Below, piece after piece: positions 54,175-64,000 of a stretch of DNA of 64,000 nt (its first letter is position 1; every line of letters begins with the position of its first letter). The position numbers were made by a program, and so were the translations under genes. The stretch comes from Candidatus Endomicrobium embiratermitis. Lineage in GTDB: Bacteria; Elusimicrobiota; Endomicrobiia; Endomicrobiales; Endomicrobiaceae. Below the pieces are notes generated by a model. That model was not told the origin of the DNA. It searched no databases and saw only the letters and a list, made by a program, of their open reading frames with translations. The DNA lies in assembly GCA_009781315.1 (NCBI GenBank), contig WQYI01000001.1, positions 248,001 to 312,000 on the forward strand, given 5' to 3'.

Positions 54175-55938
54175 TTATAGTCCTTGCAGTTGGTTCAACT
54201 TTCTGTAAATCCCGTTTTCTTTACGCATCAAATCGTCGTGGGAACCTGTTTCGGCTATTTCGCCTTTGTCCATAACTATTATTTTATTAGCGTTTCTTAC
54301 TGTAGCCAACCTGTGGGCAATTAAAATTACCGTTCTGTCTTTCATTAAATTGTCAATTGCGGACTGGACAAGTTTTTCGGACTGCGAATCAAGCGCGCTT
54401 GTCGCTTCGTCAAGGACAAGAATAGGAGGATTTTTTAACATTGCCCGCGCTATGGAAACCCTCTGTTTTTCCCCGCCGGAAAGTTTAAGCCCTCTTTCTC
54501 CCACAAGCGTATTATAGCCTTCCGGGAGTTTTGAAATAAAATCATGCGCGTTGGCGTTTTTTGCCGCTCTTACGATATCTTCCATAGACGCGTTAAAACT
54601 TCCGTAAGAAATATTGTATTTGACGGTATCGTCAAAAAGCATTACGTCCTGCGTGACTATGCCCACCTGATTACGCAAAGATTCCAAAGTCACGAATTTT
54701 ACGTCCTGACCGTCTATTAAAATTTGTCCTTTGCGCGGGTCGTAAAATCTTAAAAGAAGATTTGCGATTGTAGTTTTTCCTGAACCCGAATGTCCCACAA
54801 AAGCCGCGGTTTCCCCGTAATTTATAGTCATGTTAAAATTTTTAATAATGTCTTTATCCGGCAAATAACCGAAGTCCACATTTTTATAAACTATGGATTT
54901 GGAAAACGGTTTTAACGCTACGGAATTGCTTTCATTTTTTATAGACGGCTGCTCGTCTAAAACCTCAAACACTCTTTCCGAAGACGCCAAGGCCGCCTGA
55001 ATTTGGGAATTTACGTTGGCAAAATTCTTTATCGGCTGATACATCTGAAATACCGCACCTAAAAAAGTCACAAAAGCGCCGGTAGACCATACTCCGTTAA
55101 TAACGTCCCGTCCGCCGAGATACAATATTACCGCGCCCGCAAACGCGCCCAAAAACTCCATAATAGGGCTTGAACGCGCGTCAACCCGCGCGACTCTTAA
55201 AGCGATATGATAAAATTTATTGTTATCGTTTTTAAATCTGTTATGTTCGTGTTCCTCGGTATTAAACGCTTTTATAACGGAAAAACCGCTGAGCATCTGG
55301 TGAAGAGACGAGTAAATTTCAGCCATTTGAACCTGCCCTTCTTTTGACGCTCTTCTTATTTTCCTTGAAAATATTATCAAAGGTATTGCGGCAATAGGAA
55401 ATCCGACAAACGTTATCAAAGCAAACCGCCAGTTAAGGTAAAAAACCGTTCCTATCATAAAAATAAAAGTTAAACCGTCCATAAGAATACTGGGAGGAAC
55501 CCTTGTAAAAGCGGTTTGCATGGCGCCTAAATCGTTTGTGACTCTGGACATCATTTTTGAGGAAGAATTTCTGACGTAAAAATCATGCGACAGGGAAATA
55601 AGTTTATCGTAAAGCTCAATTCTTAGCGTCCTTATGATATTCTGCCCTATATGGTTCAAAAGATAGCTCCGCCCGTAACTGCCAATACCTTTTAAAGCAA
55701 ATATTATCGGCACCGCTACCGCGGCAAGCGTAAGCATATGAACGCTTGTAAACGTATAACTCATAAAATGCACTTCTTTCTGCATAAAAATTCCGTCTAT
55801 TCCGTTTTTTATAAACCAAAGCGAAACAAGATTCATCAAAGAAAAAAGCCCCATGCAAAGCATAGCGGCGATAAATCTGGGAATATGAGGAATAATGTAT
55901 TTTTTAAAGCGCCTTATGTCTACTTTTTTGTTTTGCAT
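54175..55938 (-). CDS. msbA: Lipid A export ABC transporter MsbA-like
   Basis: 587 residues: six membrane helices (about 15-305) fused to an ABC ATPase with GHSGSGKTT, LSGGEKQRVSIARA, LVLDEATSALD and the His switch LIAHRLATV. A half-transporter that flips lipid A-core across the inner membrane by homology. The location next to lpxB supports MsbA over a drug exporter. Confidence 0.88.
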   Translation of the reverse strand: MQNKKVDIRRFKKYIIPHIPRFIAAMLCMGLFSLMNLVSLWFIKNGIDGIFMQKEVHFMSYTFTSVHMLTLAAVAVPIIFALKGIGSYGRSYLLNHIGQNIIRTLRIELYDKLISLSHDFYVRNSSSKMMSRVTNDLGAMQTAFTRVPPSILMDGLTFIFMIGTVFYLNWRFALITFVGFPIAAIPLIIFSRKIRRASKEGQVQMAEIYSSLHQMLSGFSVIKAFNTEEHEHNRFKNDNNKFYHIALRVARVDARSSPIMEFLGAFAGAVILYLGGRDVINGVWSTGAFVTFLGAVFQMYQPIKNFANVNSQIQAALASSERVFEVLDEQPSIKNESNSVALKPFSKSIVYKNVDFGYLPDKDIIKNFNMTINYGETAAFVGHSGSGKTTIANLLLRFYDPRKGQILIDGQDVKFVTLESLRNQVGIVTQDVMLFDDTVKYNISYGSFNASMEDIVRAAKNANAHDFISKLPEGYNTLVGERGLKLSGGEKQRVSIARAMLKNPPILVLDEATSALDSQSEKLVQSAIDNLMKDRTVILIAHRLATVRNANKIIVMDKGEIAETGSHDDLMRKENGIYRKLNQLQGL

Positions 55939-55955: not shown

Positions 55956-57044
55956 TTAATCATTCAAAATCATTTCGGCTGTTCTTTTGCTTACGCCGGG
56001 AGTTCCGAGCATTTTTCTGAAATCCGCGAGTTCTTTGGTTTTTGGCGCGTAATATTCGGGCTTTAACTGTTCTATTACGGAAGCCGCTATTTTTTCCGGA
56101 TTGGCGCCGCATTGTATAAATTCCGGCACAATTTCTTTACCGGCAAGAATATTCGCGATCGCGATATATTTTACTTTGACGATAAGCCTTGCGAGAAAAT
56201 AATTAAAATATGACAATTTATACATAACAGACATAGGAATACCCATTAAAGCGTTTTCAAGACTTACCGTGCCTGACGGGCAAACGGCGATATCTATAGA
56301 CTTTCTTTTTGAAAAATCATTATCCGTTTCAAGACTTATGTACTCGGGAAGTTTTACTCCCAAATTTTCATTTACGCTAAACATTATAAAATTCGCGTTA
56401 AGTTTTTCTTTTAAAATTTTCGCCGTTTCCAAAATAACCGGTAAATGCCTTTTAATAACGCTTTTGCGGCTTCCAGGGAATAAACCTATAAGCGGCGGAT
56501 TTGAGATTTCAAAGCTTTGTTTGAAATTTTGTTTCACAGGAACCATGTCTATAAGAGGGTTGCCGACAAAAACAGCGTCAACGCCGTATTTTTTATATAA
56601 CTCTTCTTCAAAAGGCAAAATAACAAACATCTTTTTAACGGTTTCGGCAAGTTTTTTTATTCTGCCGCTTCTTGACGCCCACACCTGCGGGCTTATGTAA
56701 TAATAAACCGGAATATTTAACTTTTTGGCAAGCTTTGCGACAAAAATATGAAAACCGTAATAATCAGTAAGTATTATTTTGTCCGGCTTTTCCGTTAAAA
56801 AAAACGTTTCGAGTTTTTTTAAAAGTTTTTTTAAGAAAAAAAATTGCTTGACCGGAAGAAAGCCGAAAGCGTTTATGTTGACTATGTCTTCAATAAAAAC
56901 GTCGGATACTGATTTAAGATTGTTCCCGCCGGCGCAATATACGCGGCAAGACGGATTTATTTTTTTTATTTCGCGCACAAGATTGGCGGCGTGAATTTCG
57001 CCCGATAAATCCCCCGCTGAAATAAAGATTTTATTATTTACCAC
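55956..57044 (-). CDS. lpxB: Lipid A disaccharide synthase
   Basis: Condenses lipid X with the UDP-diacyl sugar to give the lipid A disaccharide. FISAGDLSGEIHAANLV, FVGNPLIDMVP, GLFPGSRKSVIKRHLP and CPSGTVSLENALMGIPM are diagnostic of GT19. About 362 residues. I prefer GTG at 57044, with AGAGGA just upstream. An ATG at 57083 also opens the frame but lies in a dispersed repeat and lacks a Shine-Dalgarno. Confidence 0.93.
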   Translation of the reverse strand: MVNNKIFISAGDLSGEIHAANLVREIKKINPSCRVYCAGGNNLKSVSDVFIEDIVNINAFGFLPVKQFFFLKKLLKKLETFFLTEKPDKIILTDYYGFHIFVAKLAKKLNIPVYYYISPQVWASRSGRIKKLAETVKKMFVILPFEEELYKKYGVDAVFVGNPLIDMVPVKQNFKQSFEISNPPLIGLFPGSRKSVIKRHLPVILETAKILKEKLNANFIMFSVNENLGVKLPEYISLETDNDFSKRKSIDIAVCPSGTVSLENALMGIPMSVMYKLSYFNYFLARLIVKVKYIAIANILAGKEIVPEFIQCGANPEKIAASVIEQLKPEYYAPKTKELADFRKMLGTPGVSKRTAEMILND

Positions 57045-57065
57045 TATTCCTCTTATTTTAGATGC

Positions 57066-57150
57066 ATAGACGCATGGAGGCATAGATGCATGGCAAATAC
57101 AAAGTCGTTACTACGCATCCATGCATCCAAACATCTATGCCTCTGTATTT
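57066..57150. repeat. Dispersed repeat between lpxB and the gnnA-like gene
   Basis: GACGCATGGAGGCATAGATG on the left and TGCATCCAAACATCTATGCC on the right form an inverted repeat around AAATACAAAGTCG. Confidence 0.75.
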
Positions 57151-58094
57151 TAAAACTTCATATTTTTTAATATTTGCAGCGCAAGTTCCACGGCGTCTCT
57201 GCCCTGCTCTCCCGCAACCATAGGCTTCTTGCCTTCAATAATATTGTTCAAAAAATTATCAAGTTCGTAAAAAAGCGGTTCATCGGACGGTATTTTAGGC
57301 TTTTCTATTTTTATGTCAGTCAAAGAAGTCATTTTATCAACATTGTCTTTTTTCTTATAAATTTTTACGCTCTTTCCCGCATAATCCACAGAAATATAAG
57401 CGTCAGGCTGAAAAATTCTTATTTTTCTGTATTTATCGATTGTAATTCTGCTTGCCGAAACGTCCGCGACGCATCCGTTAGCGAATTTCAAACGGACTTT
57501 AGCTATGTCTTCGGTATCGGAAAGAACTTTCGCGCCGTGCGCTTCAAGAGACACAACCTTATCTTTTACAAGATAAAAAAGCATGTCCAGATCGTGGACC
57601 ATTAAATCCAAAACAACTCCTATATGGGCCGTGCGGGGATCATAAGGCCCCAGCCTGTTTATTTCGATAAATTTAGGATTATTTACATAAGGAGCGGCCG
57701 CGATAATAGCGGGATTGAATCTTTCCACGTGTCCGACCTGCAAAATTATATCTTTATTTTTTGAAATTTCTATAAGTTCTTCGGCTTCTTCCACTTTCAA
57801 AGTGAAAGGTTTTTCCACAAGGCAGTGAATGCCGGATTCCAAAAGCGGTTTTGCTATCTGATAATGATATTGCGTCGGAGCCGAAATTACGACAGCGTCG
57901 ACTTTTCCTATAAGCTGAGAATAATCGCTTAAAACAGCGGGATTTGCCTTATTGGCTTTTGCGATTTTATCCGCGCGCTTTTCGTCGGTATCTACGATAA
58001 ATTCAAGTTTTGATTTCGGGTGTCCGCCTAAAATTCTCGCGTGGTGCTGCCCCAGCGAACCCACGCCTATAACGGCAGTTCTTACAATATTCAT
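57150..58094 (-). CDS. gnnA: Gfo/Idh/MocA oxidoreductase, probable GnnA (UDP-GlcNAc 3-dehydrogenase)
   Basis: 314 residues. An NAD-binding Rossmann domain (VIGVGSLGQHHARIL) and the catalytic motif LVEKPFTLKVEEAEELI. GnnA oxidises the 3-OH of UDP-GlcNAc so that GnnB can aminate it, giving UDP-GlcNAc3N for amide-linked lipid A. The call rests on context: it overlaps the aminotransferase gene by 4 bases and sits between lpxI and lpxB. In Acidithiobacillus ferrooxidans gnnA and gnnB lie between lpxA and lpxB. Other sugar-nucleotide dehydrogenases of the family cannot be fully excluded. Confidence 0.75.
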   Translation of the reverse strand: MNIVRTAVIGVGSLGQHHARILGGHPKSKLEFIVDTDEKRADKIAKANKANPAVLSDYSQLIGKVDAVVISAPTQYHYQIAKPLLESGIHCLVEKPFTLKVEEAEELIEISKNKDIILQVGHVERFNPAIIAAAPYVNNPKFIEINRLGPYDPRTAHIGVVLDLMVHDLDMLFYLVKDKVVSLEAHGAKVLSDTEDIAKVRLKFANGCVADVSASRITIDKYRKIRIFQPDAYISVDYAGKSVKIYKKKDNVDKMTSLTDIKIEKPKIPSDEPLFYELDNFLNNIIEGKKPMVAGEQGRDAVELALQILKNMKF

Positions 58095-59185
58095 TTTTTA
58101 TAACCTTTCACGGCATTTATTATATTTTCAACGTCGGTTTTATAAAGGGAAGGATGAACCGGCAGAGAAACGACTTCTTTTGCCGCTTGTTCGGCATTAG
58201 GGCATATCCCTGATTTATAACCGAGCTTTTTATAGTAAGGCTGTTTATACATAACCGTATCGTAATAAATTCCGCAGCCTACGCCGTTATCTTTCAAATA
58301 CTGCATAAATTTTCCGCGCTCCGACGCTTTAACGCGGATTGTATATTGATGAAACACATGCCTGTAATTTAGCGGCACTACGGGCGTTTTTATAAAACCC
58401 AGGCTTTTAAAAGCTTCATTGTACGCGTCGGCGTTTGCAATTCTTTTTGCAGTCCAATCGTCAAGCTGTTTCATCTGGGCTATGCCTATCGCGGCAGCAA
58501 GATTGGTAAGCCTGTAATTGTAGCCTAAAACCGTAAATGTCGAATGACCGTCTCTGCCGTGATTTATAACCTGCCTTGCGTATTTATCGGCTTTGGCATT
58601 ATTAGTTAAAGTAATTCCGCCTTCGCCGGTCATCATATTTTTTGTCGCGTAAAACGAGAAAGCCGAAGCGTCTGAGAAAGAACCGACTCTTTTGTTTTTA
58701 TACTCGGCTCCGTGCGCCTGACAGGAATCTTCTATAAGTTTGAATTTATATTTTTTCTTTAATCTCAAAATAGCGTCCATATCGCAGGGAAGTCCGTAAA
58801 GATGCACGATGATTACGGCTTTGACGTTTTTTTCTCTTTTTAATACTTTTTCAAGCTCAACGGGGTCTATGTTAAAAGTTTCGGGGTCAATATCGGCAAA
58901 TACAGGTTTTGCGCCGCAAAAAAGTATGGAATTCGACGTAGCTATAAATGAAAACGGAGTCGTTACGACTTTGTCTCCGGGTTTCACGCCGCATATTAAA
59001 AGAGCGGTATGCAAAGACGTTGTACCGTTTGCGTTTGCTATTCCGAATTTTGCGCCGCAATATTTCGCAAAAGACTGCTCAAATTCAACGACATATTTTC
59101 CGCTTGCAAGAATTTTCGAATCCAAAACTTCGTTAATAAATTTTCTCTCTTCATTACCTATAACGGGGGCTGCGATGTTAATCAT
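58091..59185 (-). CDS. gnnB: DegT/DnrJ/EryC1 aminotransferase, probable GnnB
   Basis: 364 residues. A PLP-dependent sugar aminotransferase: NANGTTSLHTALL, VIIVHLYGLPCDMD, EDSCQAHGAEYKN and SFYATKNMMTGEGG, with the PLP-binding Lys. GnnB transfers an amino group from glutamate to the 3-keto sugar made by GnnA. The 4-base overlap with gnnA and the lipid A location support this. Function in another amino-sugar pathway remains possible. Confidence 0.75.
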   Translation of the reverse strand: MINIAAPVIGNEERKFINEVLDSKILASGKYVVEFEQSFAKYCGAKFGIANANGTTSLHTALLICGVKPGDKVVTTPFSFIATSNSILFCGAKPVFADIDPETFNIDPVELEKVLKREKNVKAVIIVHLYGLPCDMDAILRLKKKYKFKLIEDSCQAHGAEYKNKRVGSFSDASAFSFYATKNMMTGEGGITLTNNAKADKYARQVINHGRDGHSTFTVLGYNYRLTNLAAAIGIAQMKQLDDWTAKRIANADAYNEAFKSLGFIKTPVVPLNYRHVFHQYTIRVKASERGKFMQYLKDNGVGCGIYYDTVMYKQPYYKKLGYKSGICPNAEQAAKEVVSLPVHPSLYKTDVENIINAVKGYKK

Positions 59186-59207
59186 TTTTTCCTCTGAAAT
59201 ATACTGC

Positions 59208-60008
59208 TTATATGCCGACTATTGTAACGTTTGACTCATTTGCTTTTTTTACTACTTCGTCTTTATCTAAAATCAGAGTGACTCCGGCTTCCACGGCGAT
59301 AGCTCTGACCTTATTTTCTTTTAAAACACCGATTGTTTTAACGCCTATTACCGGTACGTCAAACCTGAAATCCTGATTCGGCTTGGCGACTTTAATTACA
59401 ACGGAATTTTCTCCGCCCAGAGCATACGCCCTTTTTATGCATTCGTCTGTTCCTTCTATTGACTCTACGGCCAAAACAGACCTGTCTTTTACTACTACTG
59501 TTTGGCCTATGTCAAAACCGGCTATGCCTTTTGCTATTTTAAAACCGAATTCAACTTCTTTCTGCTCGTCGGAATTAAGTTTTTTTCCCGAAATAAGTCC
59601 TTTCGGAGCAAGAAGATGAGTTAAATATATGTGAGAAGGGAGAAGTTTCATTCCGTCTTTTTCAAACTCGCCCGCCACCGCGCTTAAAATGGTGTCGGTC
59701 TTTTTGTTTACAAGGCTTCCCATTAGTTTAATCGCGCGCCAGTCCAAATTTAAAGCGGAATAAATACGCGCATGTTTTACTTGTCCTGCCATTATGACGG
59801 TTTTGACGGTTTCGCTCTTTAAAGCGTCTATAATTTTTTGGGCTTTTCCCAGAGGCAGCCAAAAGGTTTTGTCGCAAAATTTTTCAAGATCAGGGTCAGC
59901 CTCTTCTTTTAAAGCTATGCATACGACTCTGTCGCCTCTTTTTTTTATCTCTTCGGCGACAAGAAAAGGAAATCTGTTATTACCCGCGATTAAACCTATG
60001 TTTTCCAT
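59208..60008 (-). CDS. lpxI: UDP-2,3-diacylglucosamine pyrophosphatase LpxI
   Basis: 266 residues, the LpxI (DUF1009) family that replaces LpxH in many Gram-negatives. Motifs are IGLIAGNNRFPFLVAEEIKKRG, VIMAGQVKHARIY, FDIGQTVVVKDRSVLAVE and GTDECIKRAYALGG. It cleaves the UDP-diacyl sugar to lipid X, feeding LpxB in the same cluster. Confidence 0.94.
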   Translation of the reverse strand: MENIGLIAGNNRFPFLVAEEIKKRGDRVVCIALKEEADPDLEKFCDKTFWLPLGKAQKIIDALKSETVKTVIMAGQVKHARIYSALNLDWRAIKLMGSLVNKKTDTILSAVAGEFEKDGMKLLPSHIYLTHLLAPKGLISGKKLNSDEQKEVEFGFKIAKGIAGFDIGQTVVVKDRSVLAVESIEGTDECIKRAYALGGENSVVIKVAKPNQDFRFDVPVIGVKTIGVLKENKVRAIAVEAGVTLILDKDEVVKKANESNVTIVGI

Positions 60009-60011
60009 AAA

Positions 60012-60095
60012 AATCCAATTAATAATTAATAATTAACAATTGAACGATAATTACAGAAAAAACGCTATTATTTGTTAATTGTAAATTGTTAATTG
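60012..60095. repeat. AT-rich inverted repeat upstream of lpxI
   Basis: Left tract CAATTAATAATTAATAATTA and right tract TTGTTAATTGTAAATTGTTA face each other. It is the same family as the AT-rich part of the murJ insertion and a short copy near 2115. Confidence 0.65.
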
Positions 60096-60098
60096 CCT

Positions 60099-60863
60099 TT
60101 ACTCCGGTCTTACTATTCCCCGTTTTGAGGTTTTTATAAAATCTATGATTTCTCTTATATGCTCGGATTTTGAATTTTCAAGTTTTAACAAGGCGTCGTT
60201 TAATAATAACTTCGACATAAACAAAATTTTATACGCTTCTTTTATGTCGTTTATTTCATCATGCGTCATTTTTCGTCTTTTCATTCCGACAAGATTTAAG
60301 CCGCTTAAAACCGCCCTGTCGCCATGGCACATAGCGTGGTGTATAACATCCATTGTTACTATGGCTCCGCCTGCCGCCATTACGCCTTTACCGATTCTGC
60401 AAAACTGGTGAACGCCGACTAAGCCGCTTAAAAACGCGTTATCGCCCACTTGAACATGACCGCCGAGCATACTGCCGTTTCCGATAATTACGTTATCGCC
60501 TACTCTGCAGTCGTGAGCGGCATGCGACGAAGCCATAAAATAACAATTCTGTCCTATTACGGTTTTACCGGTTTTTTTAGTGCCTCGGTTTATATTTACA
60601 AATTCTCTGAGAATCGTATTGTCGCCGATATAAACTTTTGCCGGCTCGTCTTTATAACTTAAATCCTGCGGAGGCGTGCCTACGGAAACCGAATTAGAAA
60701 ATTTACAATTTTTTCCGATTTCAGCGTACTCTATATAAGAATTAGCTCCTATAACGGACCCTGATTTAATGACTGCGTCTTTACCGATAACGACGCCGGG
60801 ACCTATTTCCACATTATCTTCAATAATTGCGCTTTCGTCTATTATTGCCGTCCGATGTATCAT
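60099..60863 (-). CDS. lpxA: LpxA-type UDP-sugar acyltransferase, second copy
   Basis: 254 residues, a left-handed beta-helix acyltransferase. It begins MIHRTAIIDESAIIEDNVEIG. The catalytic His pair is HAAHDCRVGDN, then VGVHQFCRIG and MCHGDRAVLSGLNLVGMKRR. It transfers a hydroxyacyl chain from ACP to the 3 position of a UDP-amino sugar. It clearly shares ancestry with the lpxA gene upstream (same length, same motif order) but has diverged (AMCHGD against AMAQGD). One of the two may prefer UDP-GlcNAc3N; which one is unknown. Confidence 0.9.
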   Translation of the reverse strand: MIHRTAIIDESAIIEDNVEIGPGVVIGKDAVIKSGSVIGANSYIEYAEIGKNCKFSNSVSVGTPPQDLSYKDEPAKVYIGDNTILREFVNINRGTKKTGKTVIGQNCYFMASSHAAHDCRVGDNVIIGNGSMLGGHVQVGDNAFLSGLVGVHQFCRIGKGVMAAGGAIVTMDVIHHAMCHGDRAVLSGLNLVGMKRRKMTHDEINDIKEAYKILFMSKLLLNDALLKLENSKSEHIREIIDFIKTSKRGIVRPE

Positions 60864-60869
60864 AAATAT

Positions 60870-61036
60870 GCTCTTTACCCCTCACCCGTTCTTCACTGCG
60901 TTTGAACCCGGGGCGCTCACATCTCGCGCCCGCGGCAGACTCGTCCTCGTTATTCCTCGGACTGCCGCCCTCTCCCGCAAGGGGCGAGGGAAAAGCTGTT
61001 TATTTTCACTTTACACTTTGAACTTTGCACTTTGTC
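60870..61036. repeat. Composite repeats between the two lpxA genes
   Basis: TACCCCTCACCC and CCCTCTCCCGCAAGGGGCGAG flank a hairpin-prone centre (GCGGCAGACTCGTC with CGGACTGCCGC). It is followed by the ACTTTACACTTTGAACTTTG tract also seen at 17262 and 54051. The gap holds no gene. Confidence 0.75.
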
Positions 61037-61038
61037 GT

Positions 61039-61800
61039 TTACGGACGGGCTATTCCTCTCTGCGAAGCTTTTATAAACATTGTTATTTCTTTAACGTGCA
61101 CAGACTGAGACTCTTCAAGTTTTATCAAAGCGTCGGCAAGAGTAAGTTTAGACATAAACAAAACCCTGTACGCGTTTTTTATTTCCTCGATTTCTGAAAG
61201 TTTCATCTGTTTGCGTTTCATTCCCACAAGGTTTAAACCGGCAAGAACCGCCCTGTCTCCCTGCGCCATAGCAAAAGGAATTATATCCATAGTTACCATC
61301 GCTCCGCCGCTTATCATAGACGAATGTCCTATTTTGCAAAACTGATGAATACCGATGTTTCCGCTGAAAATAGCATTATCGCCGACTTCAACGTGTCCGG
61401 CTATGCCCGTGCCGTAACCGACTATTACGTTATCGCCCAAAACGCAGTCGTGAGCTATGTGCGCGCATGCCATTAAAAGACAGTTTTTTCCTATTATAGT
61501 CTGCCCCGCGGCGGCAGTACCTCTGTTTAAAGTCACGCATTCTCTTACGGTCGTGCCGTCTCCGACTATAACTTTTGTCTTTTCGCCATTATATTTCAAA
61601 TCCTGAGGTCTTTTTCCGATTGACGAAAAATTAAAAATTTCACAGTTCGCGCCGATTTCTGCATATTCGATAACGGATTGCCCGTGAATTTTTGTTCCGC
61701 TTTTGATTATCGTTTCAGGACCTATAACCGCATAAGGGCCTATCTCGACATTATTTTCAATAACAGCGCTTTTATCGATTATTGCCGTTTGATGTATCAT
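61039..61800 (-). CDS. lpxA: LpxA-type UDP-sugar acyltransferase, first copy
   Basis: About 253 residues. MIHQTAIIDKSAVIENNVEIG opens the beta-helix; HIAHDCVLGDN holds the catalytic His, followed by IGIHQFCKIGHSSM and AMAQGDRAVLAGLNLVGMKR. It is the first committed acylation of lipid A. It lies right after lpxC-fabZ, the usual lpxA place, so it is the more likely orthologue of standard LpxA. I start at the ATG at 61800 (AGAGG 10 bases upstream); the extension to 61830 enters a repeat. Confidence 0.93.
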   Translation of the reverse strand: MIHQTAIIDKSAVIENNVEIGPYAVIGPETIIKSGTKIHGQSVIEYAEIGANCEIFNFSSIGKRPQDLKYNGEKTKVIVGDGTTVRECVTLNRGTAAAGQTIIGKNCLLMACAHIAHDCVLGDNVIVGYGTGIAGHVEVGDNAIFSGNIGIHQFCKIGHSSMISGGAMVTMDIIPFAMAQGDRAVLAGLNLVGMKRKQMKLSEIEEIKNAYRVLFMSKLTLADALIKLEESQSVHVKEITMFIKASQRGIARP

Positions 61801-61824: not shown

Positions 61825-61893
61825 TGTCACCCTGCGCGAAGTCGCAGGGTCTATGAATTTATAGATTCTGCGGCTTCGCGCAGAATGACAAAT
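61825..61893. repeat. Dispersed palindromic repeat between lpxA and lpxC-fabZ
   Basis: TTGTCACCCTGCGCGAAGTC and GATTCTGCGGCTTCGCGC, with hairpins CTGCGCGAAGTCGCAG and TGCGGCTTCGCGCA. It ends AGAATGACA. Confidence 0.8.
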
Positions 61894-61897
61894 ATTT

Positions 61898-63238
61898 TTA
61901 ATTTTGTGCTTTATCTACGATAATAAACATAAATTCCGCTTCGGTTGTAAGTTTTCCTTCGACAAAAGCCTGACCTTTCATTTTTCCGCGTCTTCCGCCG
62001 TCTTTTAAAACTTCGACTTTAAGTTCAAGATAGTCACCGGGTTTTACGGGCCTGCGGAACTTAACATTATCTATGGACATAAAATACGCAAGACAATTTC
62101 TCATTTCGGGTCTTGACAAAAACATAACGCAGGACGTCTGCGCCATTGCTTCGACAATCAAAACGCCGGGCATTATCGGCGCTCCCGGGAAATGCCCCTG
62201 AAAAAACCCTTCGTTTCCGCTCACGCATTTGTATCCTACGGCCTTTGAAGGATCCGCTTCGTTTATCTTCACTTTATCTATCATTATAAAAGGATATCTG
62301 TGGGGAATAATTTGCAGCACTTCTTCGTGGCTTAATATTTTTTCGCCTGCGGCGGTTTGCGCAGCATCCGTCATTTTCGCCTCCGTATCTTTTTGTATAA
62401 ACGCTTTTTTTACAAACTCTTTTACAAAACCTATATTATTTTGATGGCCGGGTTTATCTGCGACTATTTTAGCTTTTATAGGTTTTCCGGCAAGATATAA
62501 ATCCCCTATCAAATCCAGAATTTTATGACGGACGAACTCATCCGTATATCTCAAAGGCTCTTTATTATGTATTCCGTCCAAAGACACAACTATGGCGTTG
62601 TCAAGATTTCCGCCCAGCGCAAGCCCGTTTTTCTGCAGATATTCTATTTCGTAGTCAAAACAAAAAGTCTTAGCCGGAGCAAGTCCGTTTAAATAAATAT
62701 CTTTATCTATATTTTCGAGGCAGAGTTTTTGCTCTTTTATATAAGGATGGTCAAAACCTATTGTACATTCTATTTCAAGTTTGTCCGACGGATAAGCTGA
62801 AATTTTTGTTTTTCCCGCTTCAAAATGCACAGGTTCCTTTATAGTATAATACTCTTTAGGAGCGTCAAGTTCTTTAATGCCGCCTTCCGCAATAGTCTGC
62901 GCAAAAATTTTCGCGCTGCCGTCTAAAATAGGCGGCTCGTTGTTGTTTATTTCAATTGCCAGATTGTCTATTCCCAGAGCAAAACACGCAGACATTATGT
63001 GTTCTATGGTATGGACTCTGGCGTTGTTTTTTTCTATGACGCTTCCCCTTACCGCCATTCCGACCGCGGTATTAGACCAAAGCGCCTCTATTTCTGTTTT
63101 TTCAGGCAAATCAACCCTTATAAACCTTATTCCGTAATTTGCCGCGGCAGGCTTAAATACGACCTTGCTTTTATTTCCGGTATGAAGTCCTATTCCCTCG
63201 ACAAAAACTTCTTTAGCTATCGTAGTCTGTTTCGCCAT
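61898..63238 (-). CDS. lpxC-fabZ: LpxC-FabZ fusion (deacetylase / hydroxyacyl-ACP dehydratase)
   Basis: 446 residues. Residues 1 to about 280 are LpxC, the zinc deacetylase that commits to lipid A: EGIGLHTGNKSKV, VHTIEHIMSACFALGID (zinc His), FDYEIEYL and RHKILDLIGDLYLAG (zinc His and Asp). Residues about 300-446 are FabZ: IPHRYPFIMIDKV, GHFPGAPIMPGVLIVEAMAQ. The fusion is known from Bacteroidetes and some other groups and couples fatty-acid and lipid A synthesis. It lies 1 base after lpxD. Confidence 0.97.
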   Translation of the reverse strand: MAKQTTIAKEVFVEGIGLHTGNKSKVVFKPAAANYGIRFIRVDLPEKTEIEALWSNTAVGMAVRGSVIEKNNARVHTIEHIMSACFALGIDNLAIEINNNEPPILDGSAKIFAQTIAEGGIKELDAPKEYYTIKEPVHFEAGKTKISAYPSDKLEIECTIGFDHPYIKEQKLCLENIDKDIYLNGLAPAKTFCFDYEIEYLQKNGLALGGNLDNAIVVSLDGIHNKEPLRYTDEFVRHKILDLIGDLYLAGKPIKAKIVADKPGHQNNIGFVKEFVKKAFIQKDTEAKMTDAAQTAAGEKILSHEEVLQIIPHRYPFIMIDKVKINEADPSKAVGYKCVSGNEGFFQGHFPGAPIMPGVLIVEAMAQTSCVMFLSRPEMRNCLAYFMSIDNVKFRRPVKPGDYLELKVEVLKDGGRRGKMKGQAFVEGKLTTEAEFMFIIVDKAQN

Positions 63239-63239
63239 T

Positions 63240-64000
63240 TTACTTTTTCCCGTCCTCTATTTCTTTTTTTATTTTTCTTATATCGTTGTACATTTCAGGA
63301 AGTTTTCTTAAAGTCGCTCTTATTTTTATGCTTTGTTTGAGTTCCGTTAAAGGATTCCCGCCAACTATCTCGCCGTCATGCAAATCCCCGCCGACTCCCG
63401 ACTGGCTTGATATTGTCACATTATTTCCTATTTTTATATGTCCTGCTATGCCGACTTGCGCGCCTATAGTCGCGTTATTTCCTATTTTGGCAGAACCCGC
63501 TATGCCGGTAAGCGCCACAATTATGCAGTTTTCGCCTATCTGAACATTATGCGCTATCATAACAAGATTATCTATCTTTGTGCCTTTTCCTATTCTGGTC
63601 GCGTCAACTGTAGCTCTGTCTATTGTAGTGTGTGCGCCTATTTCAACGTCATCGCCGATTTCAACTCTTCCTATCTGCGGAATTTTTTGGTTTACTCCGT
63701 CAACGGTCACAAAACCAAAACCGTCGCCTCCGATTACAACCGACGGCTGCAAAATAACTCTGTCGCCGGCAATTACGTTTTCCCTTATTACGACATTAGG
63801 GTAAAAAATACAATTTTTACCGACTTTTGAATTTTTACCTATATAGACATTCGGAAATATTTTTGTCCCGTCTCCAACCCAGGCGCCGTCTTCAATGACG
63901 ACATTCTGGCCGATATAGACATTCTCGCCTATATGCGCGTTATCCGAAATCGACGCGGAATTATGTATTTTAGGGGCTATTTCCGAAAGCCTTTCTTTGT
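63240..64000 (-). CDS. lpxD: UDP-3-O-acylglucosamine N-acyltransferase LpxD (N-terminus outside window)
   Basis: 253 codons are visible; the start lies beyond base 64000. The beta-helix hexapeptide repeats begin [32 protein letters not shown], then [15 protein letters not shown] and [12 protein letters not shown] (catalytic His) mark LpxD. It adds the second acyl chain, after LpxC. The visible end ([19 protein letters not shown]) is the C-terminal helix. It heads the lipid A gene run in the window. Confidence 0.95.

Follow-up and report, generated by a model that had tools for sequence, protein, structure and literature searches.

A cluster of lipid A genes in the genome of Candidatus Endomicrobium embiratermitis (Elusimicrobiota; Endomicrobiaceae) carries both the gene pair gnnB-gnnA and two diverged copies of lpxA. 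The cluster lies in the window that we analyzed, a stretch of 64,000 nucleotides (positions 248,001 to 312,000 of contig WQYI01000001.1), and runs on the minus strand from position 63998 down to 54175 of the window. Probably the best explanation of the whole is that GnnA and GnnB produce the 3-amino form of UDP-N-acetylglucosamine (UDP-GlcNAc3N), that the two LpxA proteins are split between this sugar and ordinary UDP-GlcNAc, and that the lipid A contains 3-amino-glucosamine (GlcN3N), most likely as a hybrid with glucosamine (GlcN). The parts of this explanation differ in strength. From the sequences, it is very likely that UDP-GlcNAc3N is made for lipid A; that the LpxA proteins divide the two sugars, giving a hybrid GlcN/GlcN3N lipid A, is favored less firmly.

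The gnnB-gnnA pair and the tandem lpxA genes

In the direction of the minus strand, the gene order is lpxD, an lpxC/fabZ fusion, lpxA, lpxA, lpxI, gnnB (DegT), gnnA (Gfo/Idh/MocA), lpxB, and msbA. The initial annotation of this DNA placed a Gfo/Idh/MocA gene and a DegT gene, overlapping by 4 bases, between lpxI and lpxB, and the open reading frames (ORFs) and the Pfam and TIGRFAM matches agree with that placement. The overlap is the sequence ATGA at 58091-58094. The region annotated ended at 60863, which is the start of the downstream lpxA; immediately upstream of it is a second lpxA (61039-61800), and the tandem pair had gone unremarked.

The gnnA gene (57150-58094, minus strand, 314 amino acids) encodes a Gfo/Idh/MocA dehydrogenase that, from its Pfam, NCBIfam, and PDB matches and its motifs, is probably a UDP-GlcNAc 3-dehydrogenase. 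It matches Pfam GFO_IDH_MocA with 92 bits. Its best solved relative is 7bvj, with full-length homology over residues 4-303 (E = 2e-53, 185 bits); the next best match scores 72 bits. The PDB record of 7bvj is titled only oxidoreductase, but we take it to be the GnnA of Acidithiobacillus ferrooxidans, the species in which GnnA and GnnB are reportedly the dehydrogenase and the aminotransferase that make UDP-GlcNAc3N, a system to which PMC3342949 and PMC5644692 both refer. The best NCBIfam model, with 218.6 bits, is NF040723, UDP-GlcNAc 3-dehydrogenase, which is named for the archaeal form. GnnA relatives, whether paired or solo, all carry the EKP and DLM-HD motifs, which are also found in 7bvj, as are the invariant residues K95, D163, and H167, presumably catalytic. 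The 7bvj protein differs at several other residues that are invariant in the GnnA of Elusimicrobiota, e.g., E124, F126, and N127.

The gnnB gene (58091-59185, minus strand, 364 amino acids) encodes a full-length DegT/DnrJ/EryC1 pyridoxal phosphate (PLP) aminotransferase (Pfam DegT_DnrJ_EryC1, 395 bits). Its overlap with gnnA and its invariant residues suggest that it is a UDP-3-keto-GlcNAc aminotransferase. Among 10 aligned orthologs, K182, D153, Q156, S177, and N228, presumably the residues of the PLP site, are invariant. The best PDB chain is a perosamine synthetase (253 bits); WbpE chains match with 196 bits. Among the matches listed, the closest GnnB proteins in named genomes are those of Endomicrobium and Ca. 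Endomicrobiellum, and the nearest outside the phylum are encoded by archaeal, Heyndrickxia, and Chloroflexi DegT genes (45-49% identity), most of which have a GnnA homolog nearby.

Both lpxA genes match TIGR01852, the upstream copy (61039-61800, minus strand) with 301 bits and the downstream copy (60099-60863, minus strand) with 288 bits. In a tree of 73 LpxA rows, the two copies fell into two sister clades with 21 rows apiece and support of 100/99 for each, and the single-copy LpxA proteins of the family branched off before the two copies split. The tree held only two LpxA duplications, one inside Endomicrobiaceae and one in a genome outside the family (G036). Both catalytic histidines are kept in all 21 sequences of each copy. 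In functional terms, the clearest difference between the copies is at the position of Escherichia coli K76, in the QDLK loop, which we take to be the site that sets 3-amino selectivity. The upstream copy has lysine in all 21 sequences; the downstream copy has lost it in all 21, with serine in 16, glycine in 2, asparagine in 2, and cysteine in 1. In the window, the lysine codon of the upstream gene is at 61594-61596 (motif QDLKY), and the downstream gene has a serine codon at 60657-60659 (residue 69, motif QDLSY).

Solved structures divide in the same way. All five that are presumed to be ordinary O-type enzymes have lysine at position 76, and the lysine is absent from both of the presumed users of UDP-GlcNAc3N: 3hsq, presumably the UDP-GlcNAc3N-selective LpxA of Leptospira interrogans, has glycine, and 3r0s, presumably the LpxA of Campylobacter jejuni, has serine (loop QDISY). 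An altered QDLK loop like that of Leptospira was found in the downstream copy only. The paper on the Leptospira structure reportedly attributes the selectivity to the backbone of the glutamine that precedes the K76 position by three residues. Altogether, 26 alignment columns divide the two copies. At these columns, 4e6u, which is the best PDB match of the upstream copy, is matched by the upstream copy at 11 and by the downstream copy at 2, and 3r0s is matched by the downstream copy at 7 and by the upstream copy at 2. The copies also differ at the acyl-chain ruler position, which we equate with E. coli G173 and Leptospira K171: the downstream copy has I in 10 sequences, V in 4, A in 3, M in 2, S in 1, and L in 1, and the upstream copy has M in 12, K in 6, and I, A, and V in 1 each.

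From these data we infer the substrates of GnnA, GnnB, and both LpxA proteins, and the structure of the lipid A, as follows. GnnA would oxidize C3 of UDP-GlcNAc, and GnnB would transaminate the resulting ketone to give UDP-GlcNAc3N. The upstream LpxA, probably an ordinary UDP-GlcNAc O-acyltransferase, would transfer a 3-hydroxyacyl chain onto O3 of UDP-GlcNAc, and the downstream LpxA, probably a UDP-GlcNAc3N N-acyltransferase, would transfer such a chain onto N3 of UDP-GlcNAc3N. LpxC, LpxD, LpxI, and LpxB would then process both precursors, placing GlcN3N in lipid A. Because there are two diverged LpxA proteins, the product is more likely to be a GlcN/GlcN3N hybrid than uniform.

Distribution in Elusimicrobiota and Nitrospirota

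We searched 60 Elusimicrobiota genomes, including the window's own, of which 36 were Endomicrobiaceae and 24 were outside the family. GnnB orthologs were counted at ≥55% identity when they were intact or when a contig end was the only interruption, and the rows were tallied by hand. An ortholog was present in 32 of the 36 family genomes (it was not found in G006, G032, or G034 and was broken in G025), as opposed to 4 of the 24 outside. A clear GnnA (>270 bits) was found in 23 of those 24. Two intact LpxA proteins were encoded in 21 of the 36 family genomes and in 1 of the 24 others, and all 22 of these genomes carry gnnB, although they represent only two duplications. The cultured relative Endomicrobium proavitum Rsa215 has the same cluster in the same gene order (L065). 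Across most genera of Endomicrobiaceae, gnnB and gnnA lie side by side within the lpx cluster. In comparisons with three congeners, the ratios of nonsynonymous to synonymous substitution rates (dN/dS) were 0.04-0.17 for gnnA, gnnB, and both lpxA genes. These values mean purifying selection, and thus all four genes look functional; together with the adjacency of gnnB and gnnA across genera, they indicate that the arrangement is more than chance.

The cluster is eroded in some members of the family. The lpx, gnnA, and gnnB genes of G025 (L103) are in pieces, as is the upstream lpxA of G010 (L076), in which the downstream copy is intact; these states are stages of a loss of lipid A genes that has been reported in endosymbionts belonging to Endomicrobiaceae. 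Two contigs of another genome (G030:C8 and G030:C111) both carry gnnB-gnnA with equal gnnA scores, which could be duplication or assembly redundancy. In five genomes (G044, G047, G050, G052, and G054), the open frame that contains the LpxA match has 434-466 residues, many more than an LpxA; this is either a fusion or a chance frame.

Solo gnnA-like genes stand beside lpx genes in other Elusimicrobiota and in Hydrogenedentota, Theseobacter, Spartobacteria, Zixibacteria, Opitutaceae, Acidobacteria, and planctomycete records (loci L102, L106-L112, L114-L117, L121, L122, L257-L262, L267, and L269). Where Elusimicrobiota have gnnA alone, 14 of 17 LpxA proteins keep the lysine. In such genomes, either the amino group is supplied by another aminotransferase or the GnnA-like protein has a separate role, and finding its gene among lpx genes is by itself not diagnostic of GlcN3N.

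For comparison we used 100 genomes of Nitrospirota, the phylum of Ca. Magnetocorallium, of which 94 had an LpxA match. The LpxA places read were the 30 best-scoring ones, those linked to gnnB, 12 of the 14 extra copies with their fetched cluster mates, and 20 more. These amounted to 105 stretches, including 15 from other genomes, and gave 96 LpxA proteins. Of the 89 from Nitrospirota, 12 were extra copies and 77 were in clusters; one clustered LpxA, on a stretch that ended too early, was excluded. In clusters with gnnA, the lysine was lost in 31 of 53 LpxA proteins and kept in 22, whereas in clusters without gnnA in reach it was lost in 1 of 23 and kept in 22. The stretch of that single lysine-less case ends early, and its sister has gnnA. 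Loss occurred in 24 of 35 LpxA proteins with gnnA alone versus 7 of 18 with both gnnA and gnnB. These counts include gnnB only when it lay within the stretch, and L321, L327, and L329 were scored as having gnnA alone although gnnB lies just beyond. Because loss was at least as frequent with gnnA alone, a distant aminotransferase is favored in Nitrospirota.

All 12 of the extra LpxA proteins encoded outside the Nitrospirota clusters are without the lysine (L351, L352, L354, L356, L358, L360, L362, L364, L366, L368, L369, and L371), and all nine cluster LpxA proteins fetched from the same genomes keep it, beside gnnA without gnnB. This division into one LpxA with and one without lysine is the same as that in the window but has a separate origin. 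A rule that two LpxA proteins occur only with gnnB was rejected: 8 of 13 two-LpxA Nitrospirota genomes had no GnnB match at E ≤ 1e-70, and the nine such two-LpxA clusters that were read have gnnA with no gnnB beside it. At L364 and L369, the two loci looked at, the extra LpxA follows a gene resembling a citramalate or isopropylmalate synthase.

Contrary evidence and alternative explanations

Several results weigh against a GnnA/GnnB route with divided LpxA proteins. Regarding the enzymes, the 218.6 bits of GnnA fall below the curated cut-off of 450 for NF040723, and the best NCBIfam match of GnnB is PseC, also below its cut-off. Outside the family, the gnnA-like gene usually occurs without gnnB (19 of the 24 genomes), and two genomes with a gnnA-like gene, G041 and G055, yielded no full-length DegT protein, although these are drafts, ~90% and ~96% complete. 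Regarding LpxA, the best PDB match of the downstream copy, 3hsq (188.1 bits; 41% identity overall between it and the downstream consensus), is only marginally above 4eqy (187.8 bits). The lysine is retained in all six single-LpxA relatives within the family, though gnnB and gnnA are present, and in both LpxA proteins of the independent G036 duplication, again with gnnB and gnnA present. G010 retains only the downstream copy intact and Ca. Endomicrobiellum mastotermitis (L171) only the upstream copy, and thus neither copy is indispensable; the L171 protein keeps its lysine, and the genome retains gnnB and gnnA. In Nitrospirota, 11 of the 18 LpxA proteins with gnnB in reach keep the lysine, and few independent events underlie the link between gnnA and lysine loss, which was not significant in a phylogeny-aware test that had only 3 independent pairs and therefore no power.

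Loss of K76 as a strict marker of GlcN3N was therefore rejected, since several genomes with gnnB and gnnA keep the lysine. The same genomes, including L171, indicate that the upstream type of LpxA can probably tolerate or use UDP-GlcNAc3N, and the two copies may differ in preference without being strictly divided.

In one alternative, UDP-GlcNAc3N is made but both LpxA proteins use either sugar and differ mainly in acyl chain length; the duplication would then diversify the chains and not the sugars. We consider this unlikely, although it accommodates the differences at the ruler position, the retention of gnnB and gnnA by L171 with its upstream copy alone, and the possibility, raised by the authors of the study concerned, that the two LpxA proteins of Segatella copri underlie a difference in the acyl chains on glucosamine (PMC12643348). 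Among the fixed differences at sites of known function, the cleanest separates the copies in the sugar-selectivity loop and not at the ruler, and the presence of gnnB in every two-LpxA genome of the 60 sampled also speaks against this alternative, tempered by the small number of duplications. A still less likely explanation is that the gnnA-like enzyme of lpx clusters has an older function that is independent of GnnB, such as a different C3 modification of the lipid A precursor, and retains that function here, with GnnB a later addition. The excess of GnnA over GnnB orthologs outside the family (23 versus 4 of 24), the two genomes without a full-length DegT protein, the motif residues retained in solo copies, and the presence of such copies beside lpx genes in several other phyla are all as this would predict. 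Set against them are the draft state of the two genomes, the possibility that another PLP aminotransferase serves, and the frequent lysine loss in Nitrospirota with gnnA alone, which suggests that UDP-GlcNAc3N is made there too. Least probable is that GnnA and GnnB have a different sugar nucleotide as substrate, e.g., UDP-GlcNAc uronic acid, as is the case for WbpB/WbpE, and that their location among the lpx genes is incidental. There are many other kinds of DegT and Gfo/Idh/MocA pairs, and GnnB does match WbpE chains, but WbpB and WbpE were not the best relatives: perosamine synthetase scored above WbpE, and 7bvj is the best PDB match of GnnA by a wide margin. Moreover, many genera keep the pair at its place within the lpx cluster, and the downstream LpxA is changed in its sugar loop.

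Production of UDP-GlcNAc3N by GnnA and GnnB, with a split between the LpxA copies, thus remains our preferred explanation. The initial annotation had proposed that the pair gives GlcN3N lipid A. A pair serving lipid A is still the best reading, given the match to 7bvj, the NCBIfam model, the PLP-site residues, the place in the cluster, and the presence elsewhere in the genome of LpxK and a Kdo-transferase-type gene; a uniform GlcN3N form is disfavored by the two diverged LpxA proteins, and the gnnA-like gene alone would not have sufficed. If the explanation is correct, a whole family of bacteria from insect guts and other hosts makes an amide-rich, probably hybrid lipid A, the division of labor between tandem LpxA proteins can be read from one loop, and that loop is a cheap sequence marker that helps to predict GlcN3N lipid A in uncultured bacteria; E. 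proavitum would be a cultured organism for testing.

The finding also draws attention to the many lpx clusters that have a gnnA-like gene but no gnnB, and to the question of its function there. A conjecture that we put forward with considerable doubt is that the Gfo/Idh/MocA protein, encoded with lpxI (or lpxA) on one side and lpxB on the other, is an ancient and widespread lipid A-linked enzyme whose original role was independent of GnnB; Endomicrobiaceae and some relatives would have acquired GnnB first and a second LpxA by duplication afterwards, with O- and N-acylation divided between the copies. If the role is indeed that old, many phyla make an uncharacterized C3-modified lipid A precursor.

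Related systems and other features of the locus

Neither A. ferrooxidans nor C. jejuni is known to have more than one LpxA; Endomicrobium has two. With A. ferrooxidans it shares a dehydrogenase homologous over its length, and the LpxA proteins of L. interrogans (3hsq) and C. jejuni (3r0s) resemble the downstream copy in being without the lysine of the QDLK loop. A hybrid lipid A backbone is described for C. jejuni (PMC7956469). The closest published likeness is to Capnocytophaga canimorsus, for which lpxA, lpxA', gnnA, and gnnB and a GlcN3N'-GlcN hybrid backbone determined by mass spectrometry and nuclear magnetic resonance are published (PMC3342949). The likeness is one of gene content, two LpxA proteins plus gnnA and gnnB in one genome: in C. 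canimorsus, lpxA, lpxA', lpxC, and lpxD are clustered and the others are dispersed, whereas in Endomicrobium all are in one cluster. The Endomicrobium duplication arose inside Endomicrobiaceae; C. canimorsus was compared by description only. A 2024 study of Endomicrobiaceae states that key lipopolysaccharide genes are present in most genera (PMC11257099). Our literature search, made at the level of search listings, found no report of GlcN3N lipid A or of two LpxA proteins in Elusimicrobiota. The system is thus a variant of the published type with two LpxA proteins plus gnnA and gnnB, in a phylum for which we found no report.

The remaining genes of the cluster are all on the minus strand. At its head, a putative lpxD (63240-63998), cut by the window end, is an open ORF with hexapeptide repeats, and a matching gene heads the cluster in relatives. 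It is followed by an ORF of 446 amino acids (61898-63238) that is probably an lpxC-fabZ fusion; in several relatives, the two halves are matched separately. The lpxI gene, encoding UDP-2,3-diacylglucosamine hydrolase, is at 59208-60008 (Pfam LpxI_N, 133 bits; LpxI_C, 156 bits). The lpxB gene is at 55956-57083 (TIGR00215, 202.6 bits; cut-off, 190); a GTG start at 57044 is likelier than the ATG at 57083, and the TIGR00215 match begins at residue 18. An msbA-like ABC transporter gene (54175-55938; ORF of 587 amino acids) comes directly after lpxB, and four related loci (L065, L081, L091, and L094) have two tandem msbA-like genes in this place.

Two intergenic stretches, 60870-61030 between the lpxA genes and 61840-61895 ahead of the first of them, are G+C rich and resemble inserted elements. 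Dispersed repeats were suspected in both, but each of the two short patterns tried had a single occurrence in the window. An inverted repeat-like sequence at 57060-57145 lies between gnnA and lpxB, partly within the longest lpxB ORF.

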